NCBI GenBank assembly: GCA_003175985.1
Contig: PSRJ01000247.1
Span: 1 to 37,555, forward strand
Direction: 5' to 3'
DNA: 37,555 nt
From: Terriglobia bacterium
Lineage (GTDB): Bacteria; Acidobacteriota; Terriglobia; Bryobacterales; Bryobacteraceae
The position numbers were made by a program, and so were the translations under genes. The notes beneath the pieces are model-generated. The model searched no databases, was not told the origin of the DNA, and saw only the letters and a list, made by a program, of their open reading frames with translations. This document shows positions 10,213 through 37,555 of this stretch, one piece after another (position 1 is the stretch's first letter; each line of letters begins with the position of its first letter).

Positions 10213-11361
10213 ATGCGTAACCTCGAACGGGCCCTGCACGAAGCGCGGCACAACACCGATGAGTTGTTCCGCATCCTTGATCCTGATGCGCTCGATGCGC
10301 GGCCGATCCCCGAACGCCACCGCATTGTCTTCTACCTGGGTCATCTGGAGGCCTTCGATTGGAATCTGATCGCTCGCTATGCGCTCGACATCCCGTCCTT
10401 CCACGCGACATTTGATCGCCTGTTCGCCTTCGGCATCGATCCTCCGGAAGGGCAACTCCCCAGCGATCAGCCGTCCGACTGGCCGGATGTCCCCGAAATC
10501 GAGCGCTACAATCAGCGCACGCGCGAGATCATCGATCACGCCCTGCCCGACGTGTCACCCGAGTTGCTTCATGCGGCAATCGAACACCGGCTCATGCACG
10601 CCGAGACACTCGCCTATATCTTCCACAACCTGCCCTATCATCAAAAGCGGGGCTGTCCGGATCGGCAGGTTGCTGGCGGACCGCCTCCCCAGCCGCGCAT
10701 GATCGAGATCCCCGCGGGCGAAGTGCGGCTGGGCCGCGACGCCGAACAGCCGTTCGCTTGGGATAACGAGTGTGAACCGCACACTCTTGAGGTCCCCGCG
10801 TTTTCCATCGGCAAATACAAAGTAACCAACGGCGAGTATCTGGAATTCGTTCGTGAGGGCGGCCCAGCGCCATCCTTCTGGGTAGAAGGCGGTTCTTGGC
10901 ATTACCGCGGAATGTTCTCGGAGATGCCTCTGCCGCTCGATGCTCCGGTCTATGTTACGAAGTGCCAGGCGGAAGCCTATGCCCGGTGGCGCGGCGCCTC
11001 GCTGCCCACCGAAGCCCAGTTCCACCGCGCCTCTGAAGGCGTCCCGCCTTCGCAAAACGTCGACTTCCGGTTCTGGGATCCGCTGCCGGTGACCGCCGAT
11101 GACGCTCTCGTCAACGGCGGGCCTGCCCAGTTGACCGGCAACGGATGGGAGTGGACCAGCACTGTCTTTGCACCCTTTCCTGGATTCCGGCCGTTGCCGT
11201 ATTACAGCAACTACTCCGAGCCCTTCTTCGATGGCCAGCACTTCGTGCTCAAAGGAGCTTCGCCGCGCACCGCCGCCTGCTTCCTGCGGCCCGCGTTCCG
11301 CAACTGGTTCCGTCCGTCATATCCTTACATTTACGCCACGTTCCGGTTGGTGGAATCCTGA
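10213..11361 (+). CDS. egtB: Ergothioneine biosynthesis iron-dependent sulfoxide synthase EgtB
   Basis: EgtB is a non-haem iron enzyme that joins trimethylhistidine (hercynine) to a thiol donor with O2. The 382-residue protein has an N-terminal DinB-like four-helix domain with the three iron-binding histidines: H44 (YLGHLEAFDWN), then H125 and H129 in HRLMHAE (HxxxHxE). A C-terminal formylglycine-generating-enzyme-type domain (about 160-380) shows IPAGEVRLG, FSIGKYKVTNGEYLEF, ASLPTEAQFHRA and GNGWEWTSTVF. No egtA or egtC is present here, so cysteine may replace gamma-glutamylcysteine as donor, as in the Chloracidobacterium type II enzyme; this is inference. A GGGAGAG run just before ATG 10213 supports the start. 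It overlaps egtD by one base (TGATG). Confidence 0.92.
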   Translation: MRNLERALHEARHNTDELFRILDPDALDARPIPERHRIVFYLGHLEAFDWNLIARYALDIPSFHATFDRLFAFGIDPPEGQLPSDQPSDWPDVPEIERYNQRTREIIDHALPDVSPELLHAAIEHRLMHAETLAYIFHNLPYHQKRGCPDRQVAGGPPPQPRMIEIPAGEVRLGRDAEQPFAWDNECEPHTLEVPAFSIGKYKVTNGEYLEFVREGGPAPSFWVEGGSWHYRGMFSEMPLPLDAPVYVTKCQAEAYARWRGASLPTEAQFHRASEGVPPSQNVDFRFWDPLPVTADDALVNGGPAQLTGNGWEWTSTVFAPFPGFRPLPYYSNYSEPFFDGQHFVLKGASPRTAACFLRPAFRNWFRPSYPYIYATFRLVES

Positions 11362-12311
11362 TGTTCGCGCGGGCGCTTGCCAATGAATTCGCGCGCGACG
11401 TGAGAACGGGCCTCACGCGTGCGGGCCAGAAGACTCTCTCCTGCCGGTATCTCTACGATGACATCGGCTCTGCGCTCTTCGATGCCATCACCTATCTACC
11501 CGAGTATGGCCTGACGCGCGCGGATGCCCGAATCATTCAGGCACACGCTTGCGAGCTGGTGGCTTCGCTTCCGGCCAACGTCATCGTAGCGGAACTGGGC
11601 AGCGGCACGGGCTCGAAGACGCGGCCGATCCTGGAGCACCTGCGCACACGCCAGGTGGTGGCTTACTACCCCATCGACGTCTCGCGCGCGGCCCTGCAGC
11701 GCTGCGCACGCGAGTTGGACTCCTTCGGAATGGTGGCTCCCATCGAGTCGAGCTATTTGGAAGGCATCCGCCAGGTAGCCGAGCGGCGCGATGCCGGTCA
11801 GACTCTTCTGGTCCTGTTTCTCGGCAGCACGATCGGCAATTTCGAGCCGGAAGCCGCCATCGATTTCCTCCTCGCCTTGCGGCTCTGCCTGGCCCCCGGC
11901 GACGTCCTGCTGTTGGGCACGGATCTCGTGAAACCAATTGAGCAGATGACCCTGGCGTATGACGACCCCACCGGCGTCACTGCCGCCTTCAACCTCAATT
12001 TGCTGGGCCGCATCAATCGTGAGTTGGATGCCGACTTCGACCTGCGCCAGTTCGAGCATGTAGTCCGCTACACCGAAGAAGCGCAGCGCATTGAAATGCA
12101 CCTGCGCTCCCGCATGTATCAGATCGTGAGCATCCGCCGGGCCGATCTAATTGTCGATTTCGTGCCCAACGAGACCATTTGCACTGAAGCCAGCCACAAG
12201 TTCCGCCCCGAACAGATCGCCAGGCTGGCGCGGACGGCGGGGTTCCGTCTCCAAGAGCAATGGATGGACACGCAATGGGCCTTCGCTGAGAACGTATTGA
12301 TCGCGGAATAA
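11361..12311 (+). CDS. egtD: L-histidine N-alpha-methyltransferase EgtD
   Basis: EgtD trimethylates the alpha-amine of histidine with three S-adenosylmethionine molecules, making hercynine for EgtB. The chosen ATG at 11361 gives 316 residues, close to the roughly 320 of characterised EgtD, and overlaps the egtB stop by one base. The SAM-binding motif is VAELGSGTGSKT (about 76-87), followed by the EgtD signature FLGSTIGNFEP with N160. Substrate-site residues appear as Y200 (TLAYDDPTGVTAAFN) and E276/S278 (TEASHKF), matching the Glu/Ser pair that recognises histidine in mycobacterial EgtD. The frame is open further upstream, but that region is inside egtB. The order egtB-egtD and coupling point to one operon making the complete hercynine-to-sulfoxide step. 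Confidence 0.95.
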   Translation: MFARALANEFARDVRTGLTRAGQKTLSCRYLYDDIGSALFDAITYLPEYGLTRADARIIQAHACELVASLPANVIVAELGSGTGSKTRPILEHLRTRQVVAYYPIDVSRAALQRCARELDSFGMVAPIESSYLEGIRQVAERRDAGQTLLVLFLGSTIGNFEPEAAIDFLLALRLCLAPGDVLLLGTDLVKPIEQMTLAYDDPTGVTAAFNLNLLGRINRELDADFDLRQFEHVVRYTEEAQRIEMHLRSRMYQIVSIRRADLIVDFVPNETICTEASHKFRPEQIARLARTAGFRLQEQWMDTQWAFAENVLIAE

Positions 12312-27996: not shown

Positions 27997-30900
27997 ATGA
28001 AGTCTTTTCGGTTTTTGGCTGCTACTTTTGCGCTGGCAGTGTGTAGTACCGCAGCCTGGGGGCAAGGCATCTCCTCTGCCCAGATTCAGGGAACGGTGCA
28101 AGATGCCTCCGGCCTGGCCGTGCCCGGAGCCGAGATCAAGGCCACACAGACCGAAACAGGCATCAGCCGGACGACGACCACCGGAGCCGATGGCGGCTAC
28201 GTGCTCCCCAATCTGCCAGTAGGCCCTTATTCGCTGGAAGTAACGAAACAGGGATTCGCGAAGTACGTGCAGACCGGTATTGTGCTGCAGGTCGCCGCGA
28301 ATCCCACGATCGACATCGCCCTCAAGGTTGGAGCCGTGAGCGAACAGGTTTCGGTCGAAGCCAATGCGGCCATGGTGGAAACGCAAAACACCGCCGTCGG
28401 CCAGATCATGGAGAACCAGCGCATCCTGGAACTCCCGCTGAATGGGCGCAACCCCGCCGACCTCATCCAGCTTTCCGGCGCGGCAGTCGGCGGATCGATT
28501 GCCGGACCAGCTTACAACGCCTCCAGCCGAAGCTTTCAAGGCGTGCTCGGCGGAGAAGGCTTCTCCGTGGCCGGCGGACAATCCTCGGGAATCGCCTACC
28601 TGCTCGACGGCACGCTCCACAACAATGCCTACGACAACCTGAACCTCCCGCTTCCCTTCCCCGACGCGCTTCAGGAATTCAAGCTTGAGACCAGCGCGCT
28701 CACCGCGCAGAACGGAATTCATGGCGGCGCTACGGTCAACGCGGTTACGAAGTCGGGAACCAACGAGTTTCATGGCGATGTTTTTGAGTTCCTCCGCAAT
28801 AACAAATTCAACGCCACGAATCCCTTCGCAGGCCGGGGCCCCGACGGCCGCCGCCTCACAGACGGCCTGAAACGCAACCAGTTCGGCGGCACCATCGGCG
28901 GCCCCATTAAGAAAAACAAACTGTTCTTTTTCGGTGGATGGCAGGAGACGCTGACCCGCATCACTCCAGCCGACACGCTCTCTTTCATACCAACGGCCCA
29001 AATGCTCGCGGGTGATTTCACCACGTTCGCCTCGCCGGCCTGCAACGCCGGACGGCAAGTCAACCTGGGTGCTCCGTTCTCCGGTAACCGCATTGCTCCC
29101 TCGCTGTTCAGTCCGGCCGCATTGAAGATCGTCAGCCGCCTTCCGACCACCGCCGATCCCTGCGGCCAGATTCGCTACACGAATCCGCTCCACCAGAATG
29201 AGTATCAAGCGGTCGGTAAAGGCGATTATCAGGTCAGCGCGAAGAACTCGCTGTTCGGCCGTTACATGGCCACTACGCTGACTCAGGTGCCGCCCTACGC
29301 GCTGGGAAACAACATTCTGCAAACCACGGTGGGCGGCCGCGATAACCTGGCGCAGTCGGTTACGCTCGGCGATACGCACCTGATCGGCGCCAGCATGGTG
29401 AATTCCTTCCGCATGGCCATGAACCGCACGGCCATCCACCGCACCAGCAAAGATTTCTTCTCGGCGCCTGAGGTCGGTATCAATGTATTCAGCTACATGC
29501 CGCATTACATGCTGCTAACGATCACGGGCGGCTTCGCTCTCGGCGGCGGCACGGAGAGCGAATCGACCTTCCGTACCACGACGTTCCAGCTTGGAGACGA
29601 TTTCAGTTGGGTCCGTGGATCGCACCAGATCTCCTTCGGCGCGAGCGGCGCCCGCTGGCAATCCAGTTCACAAGCCAACGTGCGCTCGCCGGGGCCGTTC
29701 ACTTTTGACGGCTCCGCTACCGGCCTGGGCCTGGCGGATTTTCTGGTGGGCCGTCCCAGCCTCTACGACCCGGCCGCTCCCAACACGCTCTTCATGGCGC
29801 AATGGTATCTCGGCCTCTACGCGCAGGATACCTGGAAGATTTCGCCGCGCGTGACCCTTAACTACGGGCTGCGATGGGAGCCCTGGTTCCCGCAGATCAT
29901 CACCAACGGCAACATCTACAACTTCAGCTTTGACCGCTTCACGCAGGGCAACAAGAGTGCGGTCTACAAGAACGCTCCGGCCGGCTTGTATTATCCCGGC
30001 GACCCCGGGTTTCCCGGAAAATCCGGCCAGTATCGCAAGATGCTCGATTTCCAGCCGCGCGTGGGAATTGCCTGGGACCCGCTGGGCGACGGCAAGATGT
30101 CGATCCGCGCCTCTTACGGGCTCTTCTACGACTTCGCCAATGGCCAGTTCTTCATCAACAGCACGATCGCGCCGCCGTTCGGCGATGAGGTTCGCGTGCC
30201 CAGCCCCGCCGGTGGGCTGGACGATCCCTGGCGCGGCGTGCCGGGAGGAAATCCGTTTCCCATCCAATTCAATTCGGCCAACGCATTGTTCCCGTTCGGT
30301 TCGCCGTACCTGACCGTGAACTACGACATGCCCGCCACGGCTCTCCACTCGTGGAATCTCAGCATCCAGCGGCAGATCGCGTCCAACTGGCTGGTGTCGG
30401 CCAGTTACATCGCTAATGAGACGCAGCACCTGTGGGCTTCCACGCAGCTCAATCCCGGAGTGTATATCCCGGGCAACTGTACCGCCGGGCAGTACGGCCT
30501 GACGGCGCCCGGGCTTTGCTCAACCACGACCAACCTCAATCAACGGCGTGTGCTCAGCCTGTTGAACCCGGCCGTCGGGCAGTATTACGGATACGTCGAC
30601 GTTTTCGATCCCGGCGGCACCCAAAGTTATAACGGGTTGTTGGTGGCCGTGCAGCACCGCCTCAGCCACGGATTGACGATTAGCGGTAACTACACCTGGT
30701 CGCACTGCATCGGCGATTACAGCCAGGAGTTCACCACGCCCAATGTCGGTTCCGGTTACCAGGTTCCCAATAATCGGCGTTACGACCGGGGCGATTGTGC
30801 CCTCGACCGCCGCCACAATTTCAATATGACGGGTGTGTATCAACTGCCCCGTTTCCGCAACGGCATCGTTCGGGCCGTGGTAACGGGCTGGAAGATTTCA

Positions 30901-31317
30901 CCGATTTTCCGTTACATCTCCGGCGCCGCGCTTACGACAACCACGGGTGTGGATCGCGCGCTCAACGGCAACACAGCGACGCAAAGGCCCATGCAGTTAC
31001 TCCCCGATCCGTATGCGCACGGTTTCCTGAATTACCTGAATTCCCGGGCTTTCACGCAGCCCGCTCTGGGGACTCTGGGCAACATGGGAACCTACAGCCT
31101 GCGCGGGCCGGGAGTATTCCAGATCGACACCTCTCTCGCCCGCGTTTTCCGCGTAACCGAGCGTAAGACTCTGGAAATCCGCGGCGAGGCCTTCAATCTG
31201 CCGAATTTCTTCCTGCGAAACAATCCGACGGTGGCGTTCAGCAGCCCGACCTTCGGCACCATTAACACGGCCCGCGACCCGCGAATCATCCAGCTAGCGG
31301 CGAAGTTCGTGTTCTGA
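27997..31317 (+). CDS. Oar-like TonB-dependent receptor with carboxypeptidase-regulatory-like domain
   Basis: This 1106-residue outer-membrane protein has a signal peptide (MKSFRFLAATFALAVCSTAA), then a carboxypeptidase-regulatory-like Ig-type domain (about 28-110: QIQGTVQDASGLAVPGAEIK, TTGADGGYVLPNLPVGPYSL). A plug domain follows (about 120-260, with LPLNGRNPADLIQLSG, VNAVTKSGTNEFHGDVFEFL) and a long beta barrel ending in Phe (LAAKFVF). This is the Oar-like receptor type expanded in Acidobacteriota. It should bring large or complex ligands, often plant glycans or peptides, across the outer membrane with TonB-ExbB-ExbD, which are not present here. It has a good promoter and a strong Shine-Dalgarno site. 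A cupin gene follows after 4 bases, probably on the same transcript. Confidence 0.93.
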   Translation: MKSFRFLAATFALAVCSTAAWGQGISSAQIQGTVQDASGLAVPGAEIKATQTETGISRTTTTGADGGYVLPNLPVGPYSLEVTKQGFAKYVQTGIVLQVAANPTIDIALKVGAVSEQVSVEANAAMVETQNTAVGQIMENQRILELPLNGRNPADLIQLSGAAVGGSIAGPAYNASSRSFQGVLGGEGFSVAGGQSSGIAYLLDGTLHNNAYDNLNLPLPFPDALQEFKLETSALTAQNGIHGGATVNAVTKSGTNEFHGDVFEFLRNNKFNATNPFAGRGPDGRRLTDGLKRNQFGGTIGGPIKKNKLFFFGGWQETLTRITPADTLSFIPTAQMLAGDFTTFASPACNAGRQVNLGAPFSGNRIAPSLFSPAALKIVSRLPTTADPCGQIRYTNPLHQNEYQAVGKGDYQVSAKNSLFGRYMATTLTQVPPYALGNNILQTTVGGRDNLAQSVTLGDTHLIGASMVNSFRMAMNRTAIHRTSKDFFSAPEVGINVFSYMPHYMLLTITGGFALGGGTESESTFRTTTFQLGDDFSWVRGSHQISFGASGARWQSSSQANVRSPGPFTFDGSATGLGLADFLVGRPSLYDPAAPNTLFMAQWYLGLYAQDTWKISPRVTLNYGLRWEPWFPQIITNGNIYNFSFDRFTQGNKSAVYKNAPAGLYYPGDPGFPGKSGQYRKMLDFQPRVGIAWDPLGDGKMSIRASYGLFYDFANGQFFINSTIAPPFGDEVRVPSPAGGLDDPWRGVPGGNPFPIQFNSANALFPFGSPYLTVNYDMPATALHSWNLSIQRQIASNWLVSASYIANETQHLWASTQLNPGVYIPGNCTAGQYGLTAPGLCSTTTNLNQRRVLSLLNPAVGQYYGYVDVFDPGGTQSYNGLLVAVQHRLSHGLTISGNYTWSHCIGDYSQEFTTPNVGSGYQVPNNRRYDRGDCALDRRHNFNMTGVYQLPRFRNGIVRAVVTGWKISPIFRYISGAALTTTTGVDRALNGNTATQRPMQLLPDPYAHGFLNYLNSRAFTQPALGTLGNMGTYSLRGPGVFQIDTSLARVFRVTERKTLEIRGEAFNLPNFFLRNNPTVAFSSPTFGTINTARDPRIIQLAAKFVF

Positions 31318-31321
31318 TAGC

Positions 31322-31816
31322 ATGCTCCTCATGCGCGCAATCAGCATTACCTTCACTTTGGCAGTTTGGACTGTCGCGGCCGTGGCCCAGCAACCGGCCA
31401 TGAAGACTTATACATCGGCGGCGGATATTCAGGCGCTTATCGCCAAATCCAAAAGCGAACGCAAGGAGAATCAGCCCACCGTGGCGCAGCCGATCCTGCG
31501 GCTGGCGCCCTACAATGCAAATCTGGAATACCGTGCGTCCGTAGGTCCGGCGGCGATCCATGAAAAAGAAGCGGAGATGTTCTACGTGATCGACGGAACC
31601 GCCACGTTGGTAACCGGCGGCAAACTGGCGGAGGAGAAGCGGACCAACGCCGAGAACCTCTCGGGCACCGGGATTGAAGGCGGCACGCCGCGAAATATCG
31701 GCAAGGGCGATTTCATTATCGTTCCCGAGAACACGGCGCACTGGTTCAGCAAAATCGACGGCACGCTGGTGCTGATGTCGTTTCACGTGCCGCGATCGGG
31801 CGCGGCTGCGCACTAA
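31322..31816 (+). CDS. Exported cupin-domain protein
   Basis: This 164-residue protein has a signal peptide (MRAISITFTLAVWTVAAVAQ) when read from the second Met (31331); the first ATG at 31322 adds three residues. A single cupin barrel (about 60-158) shows motif 1 as IHEKEAEMFYVIDGTA and motif 2 as GDFIIVPENTAHWF. Motif 1 normally has HxH; here H80 is followed by K82 in place of the second His, with E85 and H140 remaining as possible ligands. Metal binding may be altered. The gene starts 4 bases after the receptor stop and probably shares its transcript. Its role is unknown. It converges on the next gene with 12 bases between stops. Confidence 0.82.
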   Translation: MLLMRAISITFTLAVWTVAAVAQQPAMKTYTSAADIQALIAKSKSERKENQPTVAQPILRLAPYNANLEYRASVGPAAIHEKEAEMFYVIDGTATLVTGGKLAEEKRTNAENLSGTGIEGGTPRNIGKGDFIIVPENTAHWFSKIDGTLVLMSFHVPRSGAAAH

Positions 31817-31828
31817 ACGGAAATCGCG

Positions 31829-32482
31829 CTATTTCGGAAAAGGCGCGAGCGGCGGTTTGACACCTCCAGGAAGCGGGCTGCGGGCCGTGTTCATGACCAT
31901 CGAAAGGTACACGTAATAGCCCTCGATATTGGCCGCTTCCACCACCCCGGCTTCTCCAAACTTTGCCAGGGCGCGGGCATAAGTCGCATCGCTGACGCTC
32001 TTGTTGTGCTGCAGCTCCGCGCAGAAATCGTAAATCAGCTCTTCGTCTTCCGCCATACGGTCGGGACGGCGCCCTTCCACTATCGCGGCTATTGTTTCCT
32101 TGCTTAGACCTGCTTGCAGGGCAGCATTGGCATGGGCGTTGAACTCGTAATTGTTGGTCCACTCGCGCGCCGCGATCAGGATCGCAAACTCCGTCAGCTT
32201 ATTGCCGAGAACCGGGTGCTGCTGTACGTGCAAACGCATCTCCAGGGCCGGCACGACCCATTCCGGCGAACGCAGGATTACCGACCAGGGCGGGCCCACA
32301 AGTTCGGTCTTGCGAAGTTCCTTGTACTCGGCCGAGGCCTTTTTCTGCGCCTCGGTCTGTTTATCCAAAGGGATAGGAGGAAGCCGGTCCTGTGCAAATG
32401 CGGTCGCGGCCACCATGAAAATGCCGGCCAGCGGCGCGGCCCGGAGCAAGACTTTCGCGTATCTGCTGTAACTTTTCCACAT
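31829..32482 (-). CDS. Exported carboxymuconolactone-decarboxylase-like protein
   Basis: This 217-residue protein has a signal peptide (VLLRAAPLAGIFMVAATAFA) and one carboxymuconolactone decarboxylase (CMD/AhpD-like) helical domain. Landmarks are LTEFAILIAAREWTNNYEFN (conserved helix pair), E113 and H117 in EFNAHANAALQAGLS, and IVEGRRPDRM. AhpD-type peroxidases carry a CxxC pair here; none is present, so it is closer to the decarboxylase-type fold, which uses Glu and His. An exported CMD protein is unusual; most act in the cytoplasm on aromatic-derived lactones. It is divergent from the metallo-beta-lactamase operon, with 78 bases between starts. Confidence 0.82.
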   Translation of the reverse strand: MWKSYSRYAKVLLRAAPLAGIFMVAATAFAQDRLPPIPLDKQTEAQKKASAEYKELRKTELVGPPWSVILRSPEWVVPALEMRLHVQQHPVLGNKLTEFAILIAAREWTNNYEFNAHANAALQAGLSKETIAAIVEGRRPDRMAEDEELIYDFCAELQHNKSVSDATYARALAKFGEAGVVEAANIEGYYVYLSMVMNTARSPLPGGVKPPLAPFPK

Positions 32483-32560
32483 TGCGGCTTACCTTTTATT
32501 AAAATGGTTTGGCCTGGAGTTTGGAGACTATCGCAGCAAAGAAGGAAATGCAAGTCTGAT
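32483..32560 (+). promoter_or_regulatory. 78-base divergent region between CMD-like and MBL genes
   Basis: An AT-rich core, TTTTATTAAAA (32494-32504), stands out in the GC-rich surroundings and is likely to hold the leftward promoter. AAGGAA (32542-32547) is a possible, rather distant, ribosome binding site for the 32561 gene. No clear -35/-10 pair could be assigned to either direction. Confidence 0.35.
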
Positions 32561-33565
32561 ATGCGTAGAGCAATGCTTTTGAAGGGAACCCCGAGCTGGA
32601 TCGTCGCCGTTCTGTGTCTTCTCACAGGAGGCGCCCTTTCCAGCCGAGCTGCGGAAGCGGATTCCGGCGGACTCGATGTGATCCAGGTCCGGCCGAATTT
32701 CTACATGATCGCCGGGGCGGGCGGAAACATCGCCGTGCAGGTCGGAATGGATGGCGTGGTGCTGATCGATTCCGGCTCGGAAGGCGCATCCGACCGCGTC
32801 CTGGCCGCCCTCAAGAAAATTACACCGCTGCCGCCGCGCTACATCATCAACACCGGAGCTGAGGCCGATCACGTTGGCGGCAACGGCAACCTCTCTAAAG
32901 CGGGATTGACCATTTTCGTAAATCCGCTGGGGAATTCGAACTTCACCAATGCCATGACTAACGGCGGCGGCGCTTCGATCCTCGCGCACGATAGCATCCT
33001 GCGCCGGATGAGCGCTCCCACCGGCAAGAAGTCGGCGTTCCCCGTGGAGAGCTGGCCGAACGAAGCGTTCCGTCAGAAGAGGTGGTATGTCCGTATGAAC
33101 GACGAAGGCATCGAAGTCCTTCATCAGCCCGCCGCCCACAGTGATGCTGATAGCTTCGTCTTCTTCCGCAAGTCCGATATCGTTGTGGCCGGTGATGTTC
33201 TGGATACCACGCGCTTCCCCGTCATCGACATTGAAAATGGCGGCAGCATCCAGGGTGAAATCGATGCCCTGAACAAGCTGATCGAATTAGCCATTCCGCC
33301 GGGGCCTTTTATTTATGAAGGAGTCGGCACGTACGTCATCCCCGGCCACGGCCGGCCGTGCGAGCAGTTGGATGTTGTGGATTACCGGGATATGGTGGTG
33401 ATCGTCCGCGACGTCGTCGCCGACATGATCAAGCAGGGCATGACCCTCGAACAAATCAAGGCAGCGCATCCGGCGCGGCCCTATGAGACCGAGTACGGGA
33501 CGCAAGAGGGTTCCGCCAGCGCTTTCGTCGAGTCCATATACAAAAGCTTGACGGCCAGGAAATAA
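32561..33565 (+). CDS. Exported metallo-beta-lactamase-fold protein with altered metal site
   Basis: From ATG 32561 this is a 334-residue protein with a signal peptide (WIVAVLCLLTGGALSSRA). The fold follows the metallo-hydrolase pattern: GGNIAVQVGMDGVVLIDSG, the metal loop, AAHSDADSFVFFRKSDIVVA, GDVLD and VIPGHGRP. In the usual HxHxDH loop it has G99-A-E101-A-D103-H104: the two Zn1 histidines are lost and only the Zn2 Asp-His remain, with H193, D212 and H263. It may bind one metal, or have a changed chemistry. The frame is open upstream, but that part is antisense to the CMD-like gene. The start at 32573 is an alternative. It heads a rightward four-gene set with gaps of 28, 14 and 14 bases. 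Confidence 0.85.
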   Translation: MRRAMLLKGTPSWIVAVLCLLTGGALSSRAAEADSGGLDVIQVRPNFYMIAGAGGNIAVQVGMDGVVLIDSGSEGASDRVLAALKKITPLPPRYIINTGAEADHVGGNGNLSKAGLTIFVNPLGNSNFTNAMTNGGGASILAHDSILRRMSAPTGKKSAFPVESWPNEAFRQKRWYVRMNDEGIEVLHQPAAHSDADSFVFFRKSDIVVAGDVLDTTRFPVIDIENGGSIQGEIDALNKLIELAIPPGPFIYEGVGTYVIPGHGRPCEQLDVVDYRDMVVIVRDVVADMIKQGMTLEQIKAAHPARPYETEYGTQEGSASAFVESIYKSLTARK

Positions 33566-33593
33566 CTCCGTGAGACGGGAAGAGAGAAACTGC

Positions 33594-34379
33594 ATGCGAT
33601 ACCGAGTTTCGAGCGGGTTGTTGGCGCTGGCGATTGGCGCAGCCCTTCCACTGGCGGCGCAGCCTCCGGCGGGCGGCCGGGGCGGGCCGCCGCCAACTGC
33701 CAAGGCTGCGGCGCCAATCGATCTGACTGGTTATTGGGTTTCCATCGTGAACGAAGACTGGCGCTATCGCATGGTCATGCCCGCGCCCGGCGACTACCAG
33801 GGAGTGCCGATGAACGTCGAATCCCGCAAGGTCGCCGATACCTGGGATCCCGCCAAGGATGAAGCGGCCGGCGAACTCTGCAAAGCATACGGCGCGCCGG
33901 CTATTCTTCGCGTTCCGGGGCACCTCCGCTTCACCTGGCAGGACGACCAGACCATGCGCATGGAGACCGATGCCGGTACGCAGACCCGTCTGTTTCATTT
34001 CGGAAACTGGAAGGCCCCCGCAGGCCCGCCCACCTTGCAGGGAGATTCACTGGCCTCCTGGGAAGTTCGCGGTGGGGGACGCGGCGGCCCGGCGCCCGAT
34101 CCCAATGCTCCGCCCCAGGGCAAGGGCTCACTCAAGGTCACCACCACACACCTTAAGGCCGGTTACCTCCGGAAAAACGGAGTCCCCTACAGCGAAAACG
34201 CCCTTCTCACCGAATATTACGACATGCTCAAAGAGCAGAATGGCGACGTGATGCTTGTGGTCACGAGTGTTGTGGCCGATCCTCAGTATCTGCGCGAGCC
34301 GTTTATCGTGACTTCGCACTTCAAAAAGCAGGCTAATGACGCCGGGTGGAAGCCCACGCCGTGCTCCGTCCGATGGTAA
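33594..34379 (+). CDS. Exported protein of unknown function, tandem paralogue 1
   Basis: This 261-residue protein has a signal peptide (VSSGLLALAIGAALPLAAQ) and a low-complexity Gly/Pro linker. The body begins PIDLTGYWVSIVNEDWRYRM and includes DYQGVPMNVESRKVADTWDP, CKAYGAPAILRVPGHLRFTW and ETDAGTQTRLFHFGNW, ending with VTTTHLKAGYLRKNGVPYS and VADPQYLREPFIVTSHF. No catalytic motif is recognised; beta-strand content looks high. It shares full-length motif order with the next gene, so the two are paralogues. The start ATG at 33594 is chosen for its signal peptide and the AGAGAG run upstream; an earlier in-frame ATG would break the signal. It lies in the four-gene exported operon. It is not a known enzyme by inspection. 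Confidence 0.7.
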   Translation: MRYRVSSGLLALAIGAALPLAAQPPAGGRGGPPPTAKAAAPIDLTGYWVSIVNEDWRYRMVMPAPGDYQGVPMNVESRKVADTWDPAKDEAAGELCKAYGAPAILRVPGHLRFTWQDDQTMRMETDAGTQTRLFHFGNWKAPAGPPTLQGDSLASWEVRGGGRGGPAPDPNAPPQGKGSLKVTTTHLKAGYLRKNGVPYSENALLTEYYDMLKEQNGDVMLVVTSVVADPQYLREPFIVTSHFKKQANDAGWKPTPCSVRW

Positions 34380-34393
34380 GGAGAGGAATCAGA

Positions 34394-35287
34394 ATGACAC
34401 GCAATCGAATCGCTTGGCAGGCAGCGCTCTTCCTTTGCGCGGGCTTTCCCGCGCTGGCGCAGATCGATCTGTCGGGGTCCTGGGCTTCTAAGAATCACGA
34501 GGACGCGCTGGAACGCGGCGCCGGTCCCAATCCCGTAGATTTCACCGGAATCCCGTTCAATGAATCCGGCCGCGCCAAAGCTCTGAGTTATTCGCAATCG
34601 CAGATTTCGATGCCGGAGCGCATCTGCGCCTTCTACTCGCAGTGGCACATGATGGTCGGAACGTTCGGCCTGAAGATCTGGAACGAACCGGACCCGTTGC
34701 GCGGCGGAACTGCGGCGTGGGTGGTTGGTGAGTGGGAAGATCGGGCAGCCATGAGAATCTGGATGGACGGGCGTGCGCATCCCTCCAAGAACGCACCGCA
34801 CAGCCAGGAGGGCTTCACTACCGGCACCTGGGATGGCGACGTGCTGACCGCCGTCACCACGCACATGTTAACCGGGTACTTGCGTCGCAACGGCGTGATG
34901 ACCAGCGACCAGGCCACCATGATCACGCATTTCATTCGCCATGGCGATATGCTGACGCTGGCCTCGGAAATCGTCGACCCGATTTACCTAACTGAACCGT
35001 ACTACATCACCCGAACGTTTGTGAGCAATCCCGCCGGCATGAGTATCGGGGGCCCGCCATGCATTATTGGAGACGAGGGGGTGCCGGTGGGGACGGTGCC
35101 TCACTACCTTCCGGGGAAGAATCCGTTCCTCGATGAGATGACCAAGCTCTACGGAATCCCGCGCGAGGCGGCGCTGGGCGGAGCGGAAACCATGTATCCG
35201 GCCTACCGCGACAAGATCAAGGATAAGTTCGTGATGCCGGCCAAGTGCTTGCGGAATTGCGGCGGGCCGCCGCCCGGAGCGAACTGA
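34394..35287 (+). CDS. Exported protein of unknown function, tandem paralogue 2
   Basis: This 297-residue protein has a signal peptide (RIAWQAALFLCAGFPALAQ). It parallels the previous gene: IDLSGSWASKNHEDA, VDFTGIPFNESGRAKALSYS, CAFYSQWHMMVGTFGLKIWN, then VTTHMLTGYLRRNGVMTSDQ and EIVDPIYLTEPYYITRTFVS. Beyond that it has an extra 75-residue C-terminal tail with PPCIIGDEGVPVGTVPHYLP and a Cys pair (KCLRNCGGPPPGAN). A middle stretch, WEDRAAMRIWMDGRAHPS, is shared with similar exported proteins of unknown role. AAGGAG (34378-34383) is a good Shine-Dalgarno site 10 bases before ATG 34394. Function is unknown; the conserved core suggests the same ligand or partner as paralogue 1. Confidence 0.7.
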   Translation: MTRNRIAWQAALFLCAGFPALAQIDLSGSWASKNHEDALERGAGPNPVDFTGIPFNESGRAKALSYSQSQISMPERICAFYSQWHMMVGTFGLKIWNEPDPLRGGTAAWVVGEWEDRAAMRIWMDGRAHPSKNAPHSQEGFTTGTWDGDVLTAVTTHMLTGYLRRNGVMTSDQATMITHFIRHGDMLTLASEIVDPIYLTEPYYITRTFVSNPAGMSIGGPPCIIGDEGVPVGTVPHYLPGKNPFLDEMTKLYGIPREAALGGAETMYPAYRDKIKDKFVMPAKCLRNCGGPPPGAN

Positions 35288-35301
35288 GGGGGCAGCAAGA
35301 C

Positions 35302-36849
35302 ATGAAACGCTATGCCACGCTTTGTTGGCTGTTTTGTACCACCGCGCTGGCGGCTGACAGCCCCGTCCCGATACCGAACTCCACGCAGCTTCCGCTGAAC
35401 GTCAACAGCGATCACGGGCCTTACTATTACTACCCGACGTTTATGTTTCTAAGAGCCAGCCGCAATCTGGTTCCGATGGATCTGGCCAAGTCGGGTTACA
35501 CGGAGGACGAGTACCTCCTCAGCGGCGCCGCTAACGTTTACGACTGGACCGCCGACGGGTCTCTCAACGTGAAGACACCCAACGCGCCCTACGCGACTCG
35601 GATTCTGGTGCGGCATCCCATGGACCCCTCTAAATTCAGCGGCACGGTGGTCGTCGAAATCATGAATGCCGCCCGCCAGTGGGACTGGTCCATGATGTGG
35701 GGCTATCTCTCGCCGCAGCTCCTGGAACACGGCGATGCCTGGGTGGGAGTGACCATGCCCGGCGCGGTGCCCGGACTAAAAAAATACGACGCCGTGCGTT
35801 ATGCGGCAGTCTCCTTCAAGAACCCGGTAACCGGGGCCTGCCCCAATGGGAATCCCATGGCGCCGAACGAAGACGGTCTCAAGTGGGACATGCTCAGCCA
35901 GGTCGGCGCGGCATTAAAAAGCGATATGCCTTCGCGGCCGTTGGCCGGGTTCAAAGTGGATTACGTTTACATGACGACTCAGGGCGGCGACGTTGTCACG
36001 TACCTCAACGCCATCCATCCTCACGCAAAGTTGGCCAGCGGCAAGCCCGTTTATGACGGATACCTGATCAAGAGCATCGGCGGTCCGGGCAGGATCAATC
36101 AATGCGCTGCCCCGCCGGCCAGGAGCGATTCGCGTTATGTCATCCACAATGTGGGCGTTCCGGTAGTCAGCGTCTCTTCGCAGAGCGAGGTGCCCGGTGG
36201 ATTGGGCGCGCGGCGGCCCGATAGCGACGACCCCGCCGACCGCTACCGGCTTTACGAGATCGCGGGAGCGCAGCACCTTGACGTTTACCCCTATCAGACG
36301 TTCCCTTCGTTCGTGGATCAGGCGGTGGCGGGGAACGCGCAGGGCACGCCCGAGTGGCCTTTTGCCGCTCGCTGCACTCCCGAAATCCTTATGAATGAAA
36401 ACCCGTTGCTCAGTTATGAGTATCACGCCGCCTTGGCCAACCTCGATCAGTGGGTCCGGAAAGGAACGCCGCCGCCGAAAGCGGAACGTATCAAGGTGAA
36501 TGGCGCCGATACCGACCAGCCGAGCGTGGCGCTCGATCAATACGGCAACGGGTTGGGCGGGGTGCGTACCTTCTATGTCGACTACCCGGTCGCGACCTAT
36601 TACATGAGCAGCCCGGGACCCGGCAATTGTCCGGAATTCGGCCGGACGGCGCCTTTCGACTGGGGCCGTTTGGAATCGCTCTACGGCAACTACAAGAACT
36701 GGTCGAACAAAGTTTCCCAGTCCGTCGACCGCTCGGTGAAGGAGCGCTGGTTTACTGACTACGATGGCCGGAAGATCAAGGCTGACTTGAAAGTGAAGGC
36801 GGAGCCGATCACGGTAGTCGCACCGACGCGGCCAAGCAACGGGCGGTAG
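35302..36849 (+). CDS. Exported alpha/beta-hydrolase-domain protein (Abhydrolase_10-like)
   Basis: This 515-residue protein has a signal peptide (MKRYATLCWLFCTTALAA). The central part resembles the alpha/beta-hydrolase domain family of PF20091: FSGTVVVEIMNAARQWDWSM, LEHGDAWVGVTM, a nucleophile-elbow region VYMTTQGGDVVTYLNAIHP, and YEIAGAQHLDVYPYQ with the likely catalytic His. At the elbow the usual Ser appears to be Thr (T225-T226-Q-G-G), by my unaided alignment. If right, it has an altered nucleophile or no hydrolase activity. It is last in the four-gene exported set, starting 14 bases after the previous gene. The start ATG at 35302 gives the signal peptide; the frame extends upstream into the preceding gene. 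Confidence 0.75.
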   Translation: MKRYATLCWLFCTTALAADSPVPIPNSTQLPLNVNSDHGPYYYYPTFMFLRASRNLVPMDLAKSGYTEDEYLLSGAANVYDWTADGSLNVKTPNAPYATRILVRHPMDPSKFSGTVVVEIMNAARQWDWSMMWGYLSPQLLEHGDAWVGVTMPGAVPGLKKYDAVRYAAVSFKNPVTGACPNGNPMAPNEDGLKWDMLSQVGAALKSDMPSRPLAGFKVDYVYMTTQGGDVVTYLNAIHPHAKLASGKPVYDGYLIKSIGGPGRINQCAAPPARSDSRYVIHNVGVPVVSVSSQSEVPGGLGARRPDSDDPADRYRLYEIAGAQHLDVYPYQTFPSFVDQAVAGNAQGTPEWPFAARCTPEILMNENPLLSYEYHAALANLDQWVRKGTPPPKAERIKVNGADTDQPSVALDQYGNGLGGVRTFYVDYPVATYYMSSPGPGNCPEFGRTAPFDWGRLESLYGNYKNWSNKVSQSVDRSVKERWFTDYDGRKIKADLKVKAEPITVVAPTRPSNGR

Positions 36850-36916: not shown

Positions 36917-37555
36917 TCAGTAGCCCGTCGCGGATATGGGCGCGTGGTGCGTGTCGGAGCCAAATACTGGTATGGGTGGGCGAGGCAGGCGTTCCTCCGC
37001 GTCCGGATGTTCGAAAAGTTCGCGAATTAGATAAGAAGTGAACCGCTCCGCTGGAAGGCGCCCGATGGTGCGGATCAACGCGCGGAATTCGCCCGGTGCG
37101 ACGTACTCGCCGAAAGTGGCGCCGGCTGCTTTGGAGATGCTTTCTTCCATTAGCGTGCCGCCGAAATCGTTCGCTCCGGCTTCCATACACGCCAAGGAAT
37201 CTTCGAACCCGAGCTTGACCCAGGAAACCTGAATGTTGCGGATGTAATTGTTCAGGAGAAGGCGCGAAAGGGCGTGAACGATCAGATCCTCGTGAATCGC
37301 GTGGCCGGGGCGGGCATGTCCGCTCTTGAAAAGCTTGGTTTGTGAGTGGATGAATCCCAGGGGAACGAACTCCGTGAATCCGCCCGTGTCCTTTTGAATC
37401 TCACGAAGCAAAAGCAAATGCCGGACCCAATGTTCGGGAAGCTCGGTGTGGCCATACATCATGGTAGAGGTGGTTGGAATTCCGAGACTGTGCGCGGTCC
37501 GAATGATTTCGATCCACTGCTGCACTTTCAGCTTGTTGGGACTTAAGGACCGGCG
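36917..37555 (-). CDS. cofH: C-terminal part of FO synthase subunit CofH (5' partial)
   Basis: CofH is a radical-SAM enzyme that, with CofG, builds the deazaflavin FO, the chromophore of coenzyme F420. The frame is open to the window edge and gives 212 C-terminal residues. Recognised segments include SPNKLKVQQWIEIIRTAHSL, TSTMMYGHTELPEHWVRHL, DTGGFTEFVPLGFIHS, IRNIQVSWVKLGFEDSL, and AGANDFGGTLMEESISKAAG, which is the CofH/FbiC C-terminal pattern rather than MqnC/MqnE. The CxxxCxxC cluster motif lies outside the window. The GTG at 37525 within the frame is not the start. Whether cofG and other F420 genes adjoin is not visible. It converges on the hydrolase with a 67-base gap. Confidence 0.88.
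   Translation of the reverse strand, partial: RRSLSPNKLKVQQWIEIIRTAHSLGIPTTSTMMYGHTELPEHWVRHLLLLREIQKDTGGFTEFVPLGFIHSQTKLFKSGHARPGHAIHEDLIVHALSRLLLNNYIRNIQVSWVKLGFEDSLACMEAGANDFGGTLMEESISKAAGATFGEYVAPGEFRALIRTIGRLPAERFTSYLIRELFEHPDAEERLPRPPIPVFGSDTHHAPISATGY

Follow-up and report, generated by a model that had tools for sequence, protein, structure and literature searches.

A co-diversifying trio of an exported metallo-beta-lactamase-fold protein and two predicted calycin-type barrels, multiplied in genomes of uncultured Acidobacteriota

Polysaccharide utilisation loci (SusC/SusD) consist of an exported unit in many diverged copies, at times with a TonB receptor alongside, and the gene trio analysed here shares this organisation. 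However, the trio contains no SusD, no carbohydrate enzymes were seen with it, and its receptor is optional; none of the seven proteins listed below matches a SusD family. The individual trio members also resemble described protein classes. Lipocalins carry a GxW motif in the first strand of the barrel as their hallmark, and class B2 beta-lactamases are one-zinc enzymes. Two trio members, UA and UB, combine a predicted barrel with GxW at the first strand, as calycins do, but they show no sequence match to calycins, occur as paired paralogues coupled or fused to the third member, a metallo-beta-lactamase-fold protein (MBL), and possess extra N- and C-terminal segments. No description of the trio was found in our literature collection, which is incomplete. 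The available part of an article on gene duplication in Candidatus Solibacter usitatus places TonB receptors among the paralogues and does not mention beta-lactamase (PMC3174227), and the available part of an article on lanthanide systems in Acidobacteria contains nothing on the trio (PMC10875860). With a probability of about 0.5, we read the trio as an exported unit in which the two barrels capture a small ligand and the MBL processes or holds it, the copies differing by ligand.

The window, meaning the whole stretch of DNA that was analysed, comprises 37,555 nucleotides from a Terriglobia bacterium of the family Bryobacteraceae. Seven of its genes are relevant here:

27997..31317, + strand: TonB-dependent receptor, OMP_b-brl_4 (677 bits) and CarboxypepD_reg; outside the conserved unit
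31322..31816, + strand: exported cupin, Cupin_2 (PF07883) 36.5 bits, cut-off 27.2; alternative start at 31331
31829..32482, - strand: exported CMD-like protein, PF02627 20.4 bits, under the cut-off of 23; divergent from the trio
32561..33565, + strand: MBL, exported metallo-beta-lactamase-fold protein, Lactamase_B (PF00753) 48.7 bits, cut-off 22.7; trio core
33594..34379, + strand: UA, exported protein without a named family; GxW motif in a predicted calycin-type barrel; trio core
34394..35287, + strand: UB, exported and paralogous to UA; GxW motif in a predicted calycin-type barrel; trio core
35302..36849, + strand: Abhydrolase_10 (PF20091) protein, 369.5 bits, cut-off 23; 14 bases 3' of UB; optional partner

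Coordinates and profile matches bear out the frames, order, strands and families given by a sequence-only reading of this region, with the CMD-like protein falling short of the carboxymuconolactone decarboxylase profile. The last four genes form an operon, MBL-UA-UB-Abhydrolase_10, with intergenic gaps of 28, 14 and 14 bases, and the receptor stop at 31317 is separated from the cupin frame start at 31322 by the 4 bases originally reported. Signal-like N-termini were recovered in 7/7 products under a home-made signal-peptide rule that is weaker than SignalP, and a promoter and terminator scan yielded nothing above chance. The missing residues described in that reading are real as well: the cupin reads IHEKEAEMF, in which HxH is HEK and the second His has become Lys; CxxC is absent from the CMD-like protein; the MBL lacks the Zn1 pair; and the Abhydrolase_10 protein has TTQGGD at the Ser-motif position. 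Its orthologues carry TTQG[AS]D there and most other relatives have Ser, the nucleophilic Ser motif of alpha/beta-hydrolases being absent from the window protein and from its orthologues. Elsewhere in the window, two adjacent genes at 10213-12311 resemble an ergothioneine-type EgtB/EgtD pair, and a minus-strand fragment at 36917-37555, cut by the window end, resembles radical SAM proteins of the CofH type, which act in F420 biosynthesis.

All seven genes had been proposed to constitute one undescribed exported system. A system is present and several members look catalytically degenerate, but its boundary was drawn wrongly, the unit being MBL-UA-UB only. This emerged when conservation of the neighbourhood was examined in four congeners (G001-G004). 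The order of the MBL-UA-UB orthologues is strongly kept, in 4/4 genomes (G004:C594, G001:C25, G002:C233 and G003:C265, where the contig ends inside UA), at identities of 77-82% for UB (three congeners) and 73-81% for MBL (four congeners). Because the next-best copies within the own genome are just 55-59% identical, the trio duplications took place before these species diverged. In contrast, the other four genes (receptor, cupin, CMD-like and hydrolase) do not keep their place. All four congeners have a cupin orthologue (66-74%), but on another contig and with neither receptor nor trio alongside, and hydrolase orthologues (57-76%) likewise occupy other contigs, away from the orthologous trio. 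Among the four CMD-like orthologues (50-70%), three are remote from any trio and the fourth (L067) has a paralogous UB-MBL pair at a distance of about 2 kb. No clear receptor orthologue was found in the congeners, the one candidate, in G003, being a partial match (67%) where a contig ends. Synteny in the four congeners thus rules out the seven-gene set as a conserved unit. Since the orthologues of the companions are unlinked while the trio order is kept, the seven-gene grouping is local whereas the trio is not: MBL, UA and UB are grouped beyond chance, and the receptor-cupin pair, the CMD-like protein and the hydrolase are not.

Operon partners were counted across 74 trio modules, for which the module-neighbour background is small (17 triplets). 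DUF6152 was found in the operon of 21 modules, a DUF6644-like small membrane protein in 7, a receptor in 7 (1/21 in the own genus and 4/13 in the phylum set) and Abhydrolase_10 in 1, and neither cupin nor CMD adjoined any module (0/74). The receptor as an obligatory partner is ruled out by these counts, including the single case in the own genus, although trio loci with a receptor do exist in other lineages, for example L116 (TonB-UB-MBL-UA-ABH), L111 and L117. Because the own genome (G000) contains 109 matches to PF00593, the TonB barrel family, many of them in frames of 1000-1300 residues, a receptor near any gene is unsurprising. Abhydrolase_10 adjoins the trio in three lineages, namely this window, G128 and G357, and outside the window only at loci L116 and L108/L197; in G128, where the order is TonB-UB-MBL-UA-ABH, the gene beside the trio is the only one of its kind. 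It accompanies the trio rarely, though perhaps not by accident. Given 7/74 modules for the receptor and three lineages for the hydrolase, both are optional and not parts of one fixed pathway, and, like the remaining neighbours, the receptor mostly stands beside the trio by accident. A seven-gene periplasmic pathway, in which one TonB-imported ligand would be handled in sequence by the cupin, the CMD-like protein, the trio and the hydrolase, would agree with gene position, with the signal-like N-termini and with the receptors in some trio operons elsewhere. It is nevertheless very improbable, because none of the four congeners links its orthologues of the cupin, the CMD-like protein or the hydrolase to the orthologous trio, the receptor has only its partial match, cupin and CMD are missing beside all modules, and the CMD gene lies on the opposite strand.

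That MBL, UA and UB form one unit is well supported by their neighbourhoods, by gene fusion and by co-diversification. Among the 49 UA genes in 80 loci that had three genes present on each side, same-strand partners within three genes were MBL in 45, UB in 44 and both in 42; DUF6152 was present in 16 and Abhydrolase_10 in 1, and receptor, cupin and CMD in none (0/49). Gene order varies between UB-MBL-UA and MBL-UA-UB, sometimes with DUF6152 in between. UB and MBL are fused in a single reading frame in 9/80 loci, and such UB::MBL fusions also occur within the own genus, at several loci. Across 80 modules, the distance matrices of the partners were correlated at 0.62 for UA-UB, 0.63 for UA-MBL and 0.73 for UB-MBL. 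When partners were shuffled within genomes, which keeps the species tree, the maxima were 0.47, 0.50 and 0.48, and 0/2000 permutations reached the observed values; the neighbour counts and the co-diversification both derive from a home-made gene caller and from loci picked via UA. Because co-diversification exceeds the within-genome permutation, the partners belong together copy by copy, and this constitutes the strongest evidence for the unit. Together with the fusions, it predicts a physical complex.

The amplification of the unit is similarly supported. Counting matches of at least 90 bits, UB is present in 19 copies in the own genome and in 11, 9, 13 and 16 copies in G001-G004, respectively. 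A higher estimate, 30-50 copies of the trio in each genome, was abandoned, as the raw count mixed UA, UB and wider homologues. In 14 further genera of the bacterial family, that search returned nothing for UB; G227, from yet another genus, does have this protein family. In a phylum search that scored six candidates per genome, UA was found in 8/396 genomes from several families, mostly in multiple copies. The trio itself recurs in other families of this phylum and, beyond it, in further bacteria from soil and water. A scan of GTDB species genomes with UA found 413 relatives. The best-scoring 80 of these, which form the locus sample chosen through UA and most of which contain the trio, are mostly from Acidobacteriota, and about 10 lie in MAGs labelled Gammaproteobacteria, proteobacterium or Acidimicrobiia, these labels being the submitters' own.

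The description of UA and UB as two paralogous unknowns was confirmed by an identity of 28% and a profile E-value of 6e-42. Neither protein found a family in Pfam or NCBIfam, nor a credible match in the PDB by sequence. Structures were modelled using AlphaFold2 with input alignments from the fetched loci, which were shallow (Neff about 3), and reached a pLDDT of 85 for UB and 87 for UA. When the two models were submitted separately to VIA-align, the listed matches were calycin-type barrels, including retinol- and fatty-acid-binding proteins, NanoLuc and avidins, with a best Z of 9.4, where a note of the tool gives 7-8 as the usual best value when a model has no clear match. The best Foldseek E-values for the two models were 4.5e-3 and 1.8e-2, and none was 0.001 or lower. 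The GxW motif is invariant or over 90% conserved in both families and corresponds to G28-x-W30 in UB (strand 28-32) and G46-x-W48 in UA (strand 46-51). As both models agree and the conserved GxW sits in the first strand, UA and UB are predicted to be calycin-type barrels. Profile comparison additionally showed that exported 'DGKPDLSGVW' proteins (cluster C2; L093:17457-18176, L094:7414-8244 and others) are homologous to UB and UA, but these are rarely coupled to an MBL; one tested member has no Pfam family.

The MBL shares its fold with the metallo-beta-lactamase superfamily (PF00753). In the window protein, G99 and E101 replace the Zn1 His/His, whereas D103, H104, H193, D212 and H263 are kept (G-E-D-H-H-D-H), and the complete ligand set of HxHxDH plus His, Asp and His is therefore absent; the Zn2-side set that remains is the site used by class B2 enzymes. 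Among 127 aligned MBLs, all seven ligand positions are present in 48, only the Zn1 pair is missing in 36, and 43 show other losses, a number that alignment errors may inflate. The window MBL and its orthologues belong to the class that lost the Zn1 pair, except in G002, where more is lost. This loss is recurrent, since the tree needs 14 changes for the Zn1-loss state, at least 10 of them forced by starred branches. For an MBL lacking the Zn1 residues, both one-zinc catalysis and a pseudoenzyme role are possible. The nearest named families are distant: the window protein scores 73 bits against TIGR04559 (SoxH_rel_PQQ_2, SoxH-related quinoprotein relay metallohydrolase; cut-off 280), a relative reaches up to 98.6, and the class B2 beta-lactamase model NF033087 gives the window protein 20.9 bits (cut-off 240). 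With scores so far under the cut-offs, the MBL is not assigned to either family; unlike the named subfamilies in general, all of whose cut-offs it misses widely, the trio MBL is coupled to UA and UB.

The repeated loss of zinc ligands could instead point to a unit for binding, sensing or electron relay, with the MBL mostly a pseudoenzyme and the trio carrying or sensing a cofactor (a quinone, for example) on behalf of nearby dehydrogenases. The SoxH-related relay family being the nearest named one would fit this explanation, as would PQQ dehydrogenases and other oxidoreductases near some modules. We nonetheless consider it unlikely, given SoxH-type scores of 58-99 bits, a complete zinc site that persists in 48/127 aligned proteins, and PQQ enzymes near few modules only. 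Defence against antibiotics or toxins would be another role for these proteins, with the trio sequestering and hydrolysing soil antibiotics such as beta-lactams or lactones and the copies covering different compounds. The MBL profile does match class B2 and B3 beta-lactamase structures, as well as beta-lactamase models weakly, avidin- or lipocalin-like barrels would suit sequestration, and the copies are many. All NCBIfam beta-lactamase scores, however, are far under their cut-offs, and UA had no match in 72,556 plasmid records, unlike mobile resistance genes; additionally, PADLOC returned no match, which is weak evidence as it is an anti-phage library. Defence is thus an improbable function for the trio.

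Under the preferred reading of a ligand-binding exported unit, the UA and UB barrels would bind a small ligand, probably hydrophobic or aromatic, in the periplasm, a location and ligand class that we infer along with catalysis and specialisation by copy. The MBL partner, often beside or fused to UB, would hydrolyse this ligand, or hold it where the zinc site has eroded; the window MBL may accordingly resemble class B2 as a one-zinc enzyme or serve as a binding protein. A single shared hydrolysis is argued against because about one third of the MBLs are without further metal ligands. The unit would have been duplicated long ago, giving the 9-19 copies now present in a genome, and each copy would have diverged with its own partners; this co-divergence would be most simply explained if each copy handles a different ligand. 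A receptor and an Abhydrolase_10 protein could be recruited to single copies. More tentatively, the trio may represent an undescribed capture-and-processing system, a complex of a lipocalin-like barrel pair with an MBL, multiplied and diversified like sugar utilisation loci for a class of soil small molecules, and widespread in uncultured Acidobacteriota and some MAGs labelled Gammaproteobacteria. Two families without a Pfam or NCBIfam model, with hundreds of relatives in reference genomes and up to 19 copies per genome, are in any case steady partners of an MBL, and the trio offers a concrete starting point for experiments on functionally uncharacterised exported proteins of uncultured soil bacteria. 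Were every copy to handle a ligand of its own, the copies together would reveal the small molecules that these bacteria live on or defend themselves against.

Several further proteins recur around trio loci. Proteins of the DUF6152 family (PF19649) often share an operon with the trio (L070:4370-4756, L111, L114, L117 and others), and our incomplete literature collection contained no paper on this family. The DUF6644-like protein, whose Pfam score lies just under the cut-off, recurs near trios in 21 operonic cases at 13 loci (e.g. L111:3056-3517). Finally, L144, L160 and L166, from three different MAGs, have two genes in common 3' of the trio, encoding about 781-811 and 513-519 residues, which hints at a larger conserved block.
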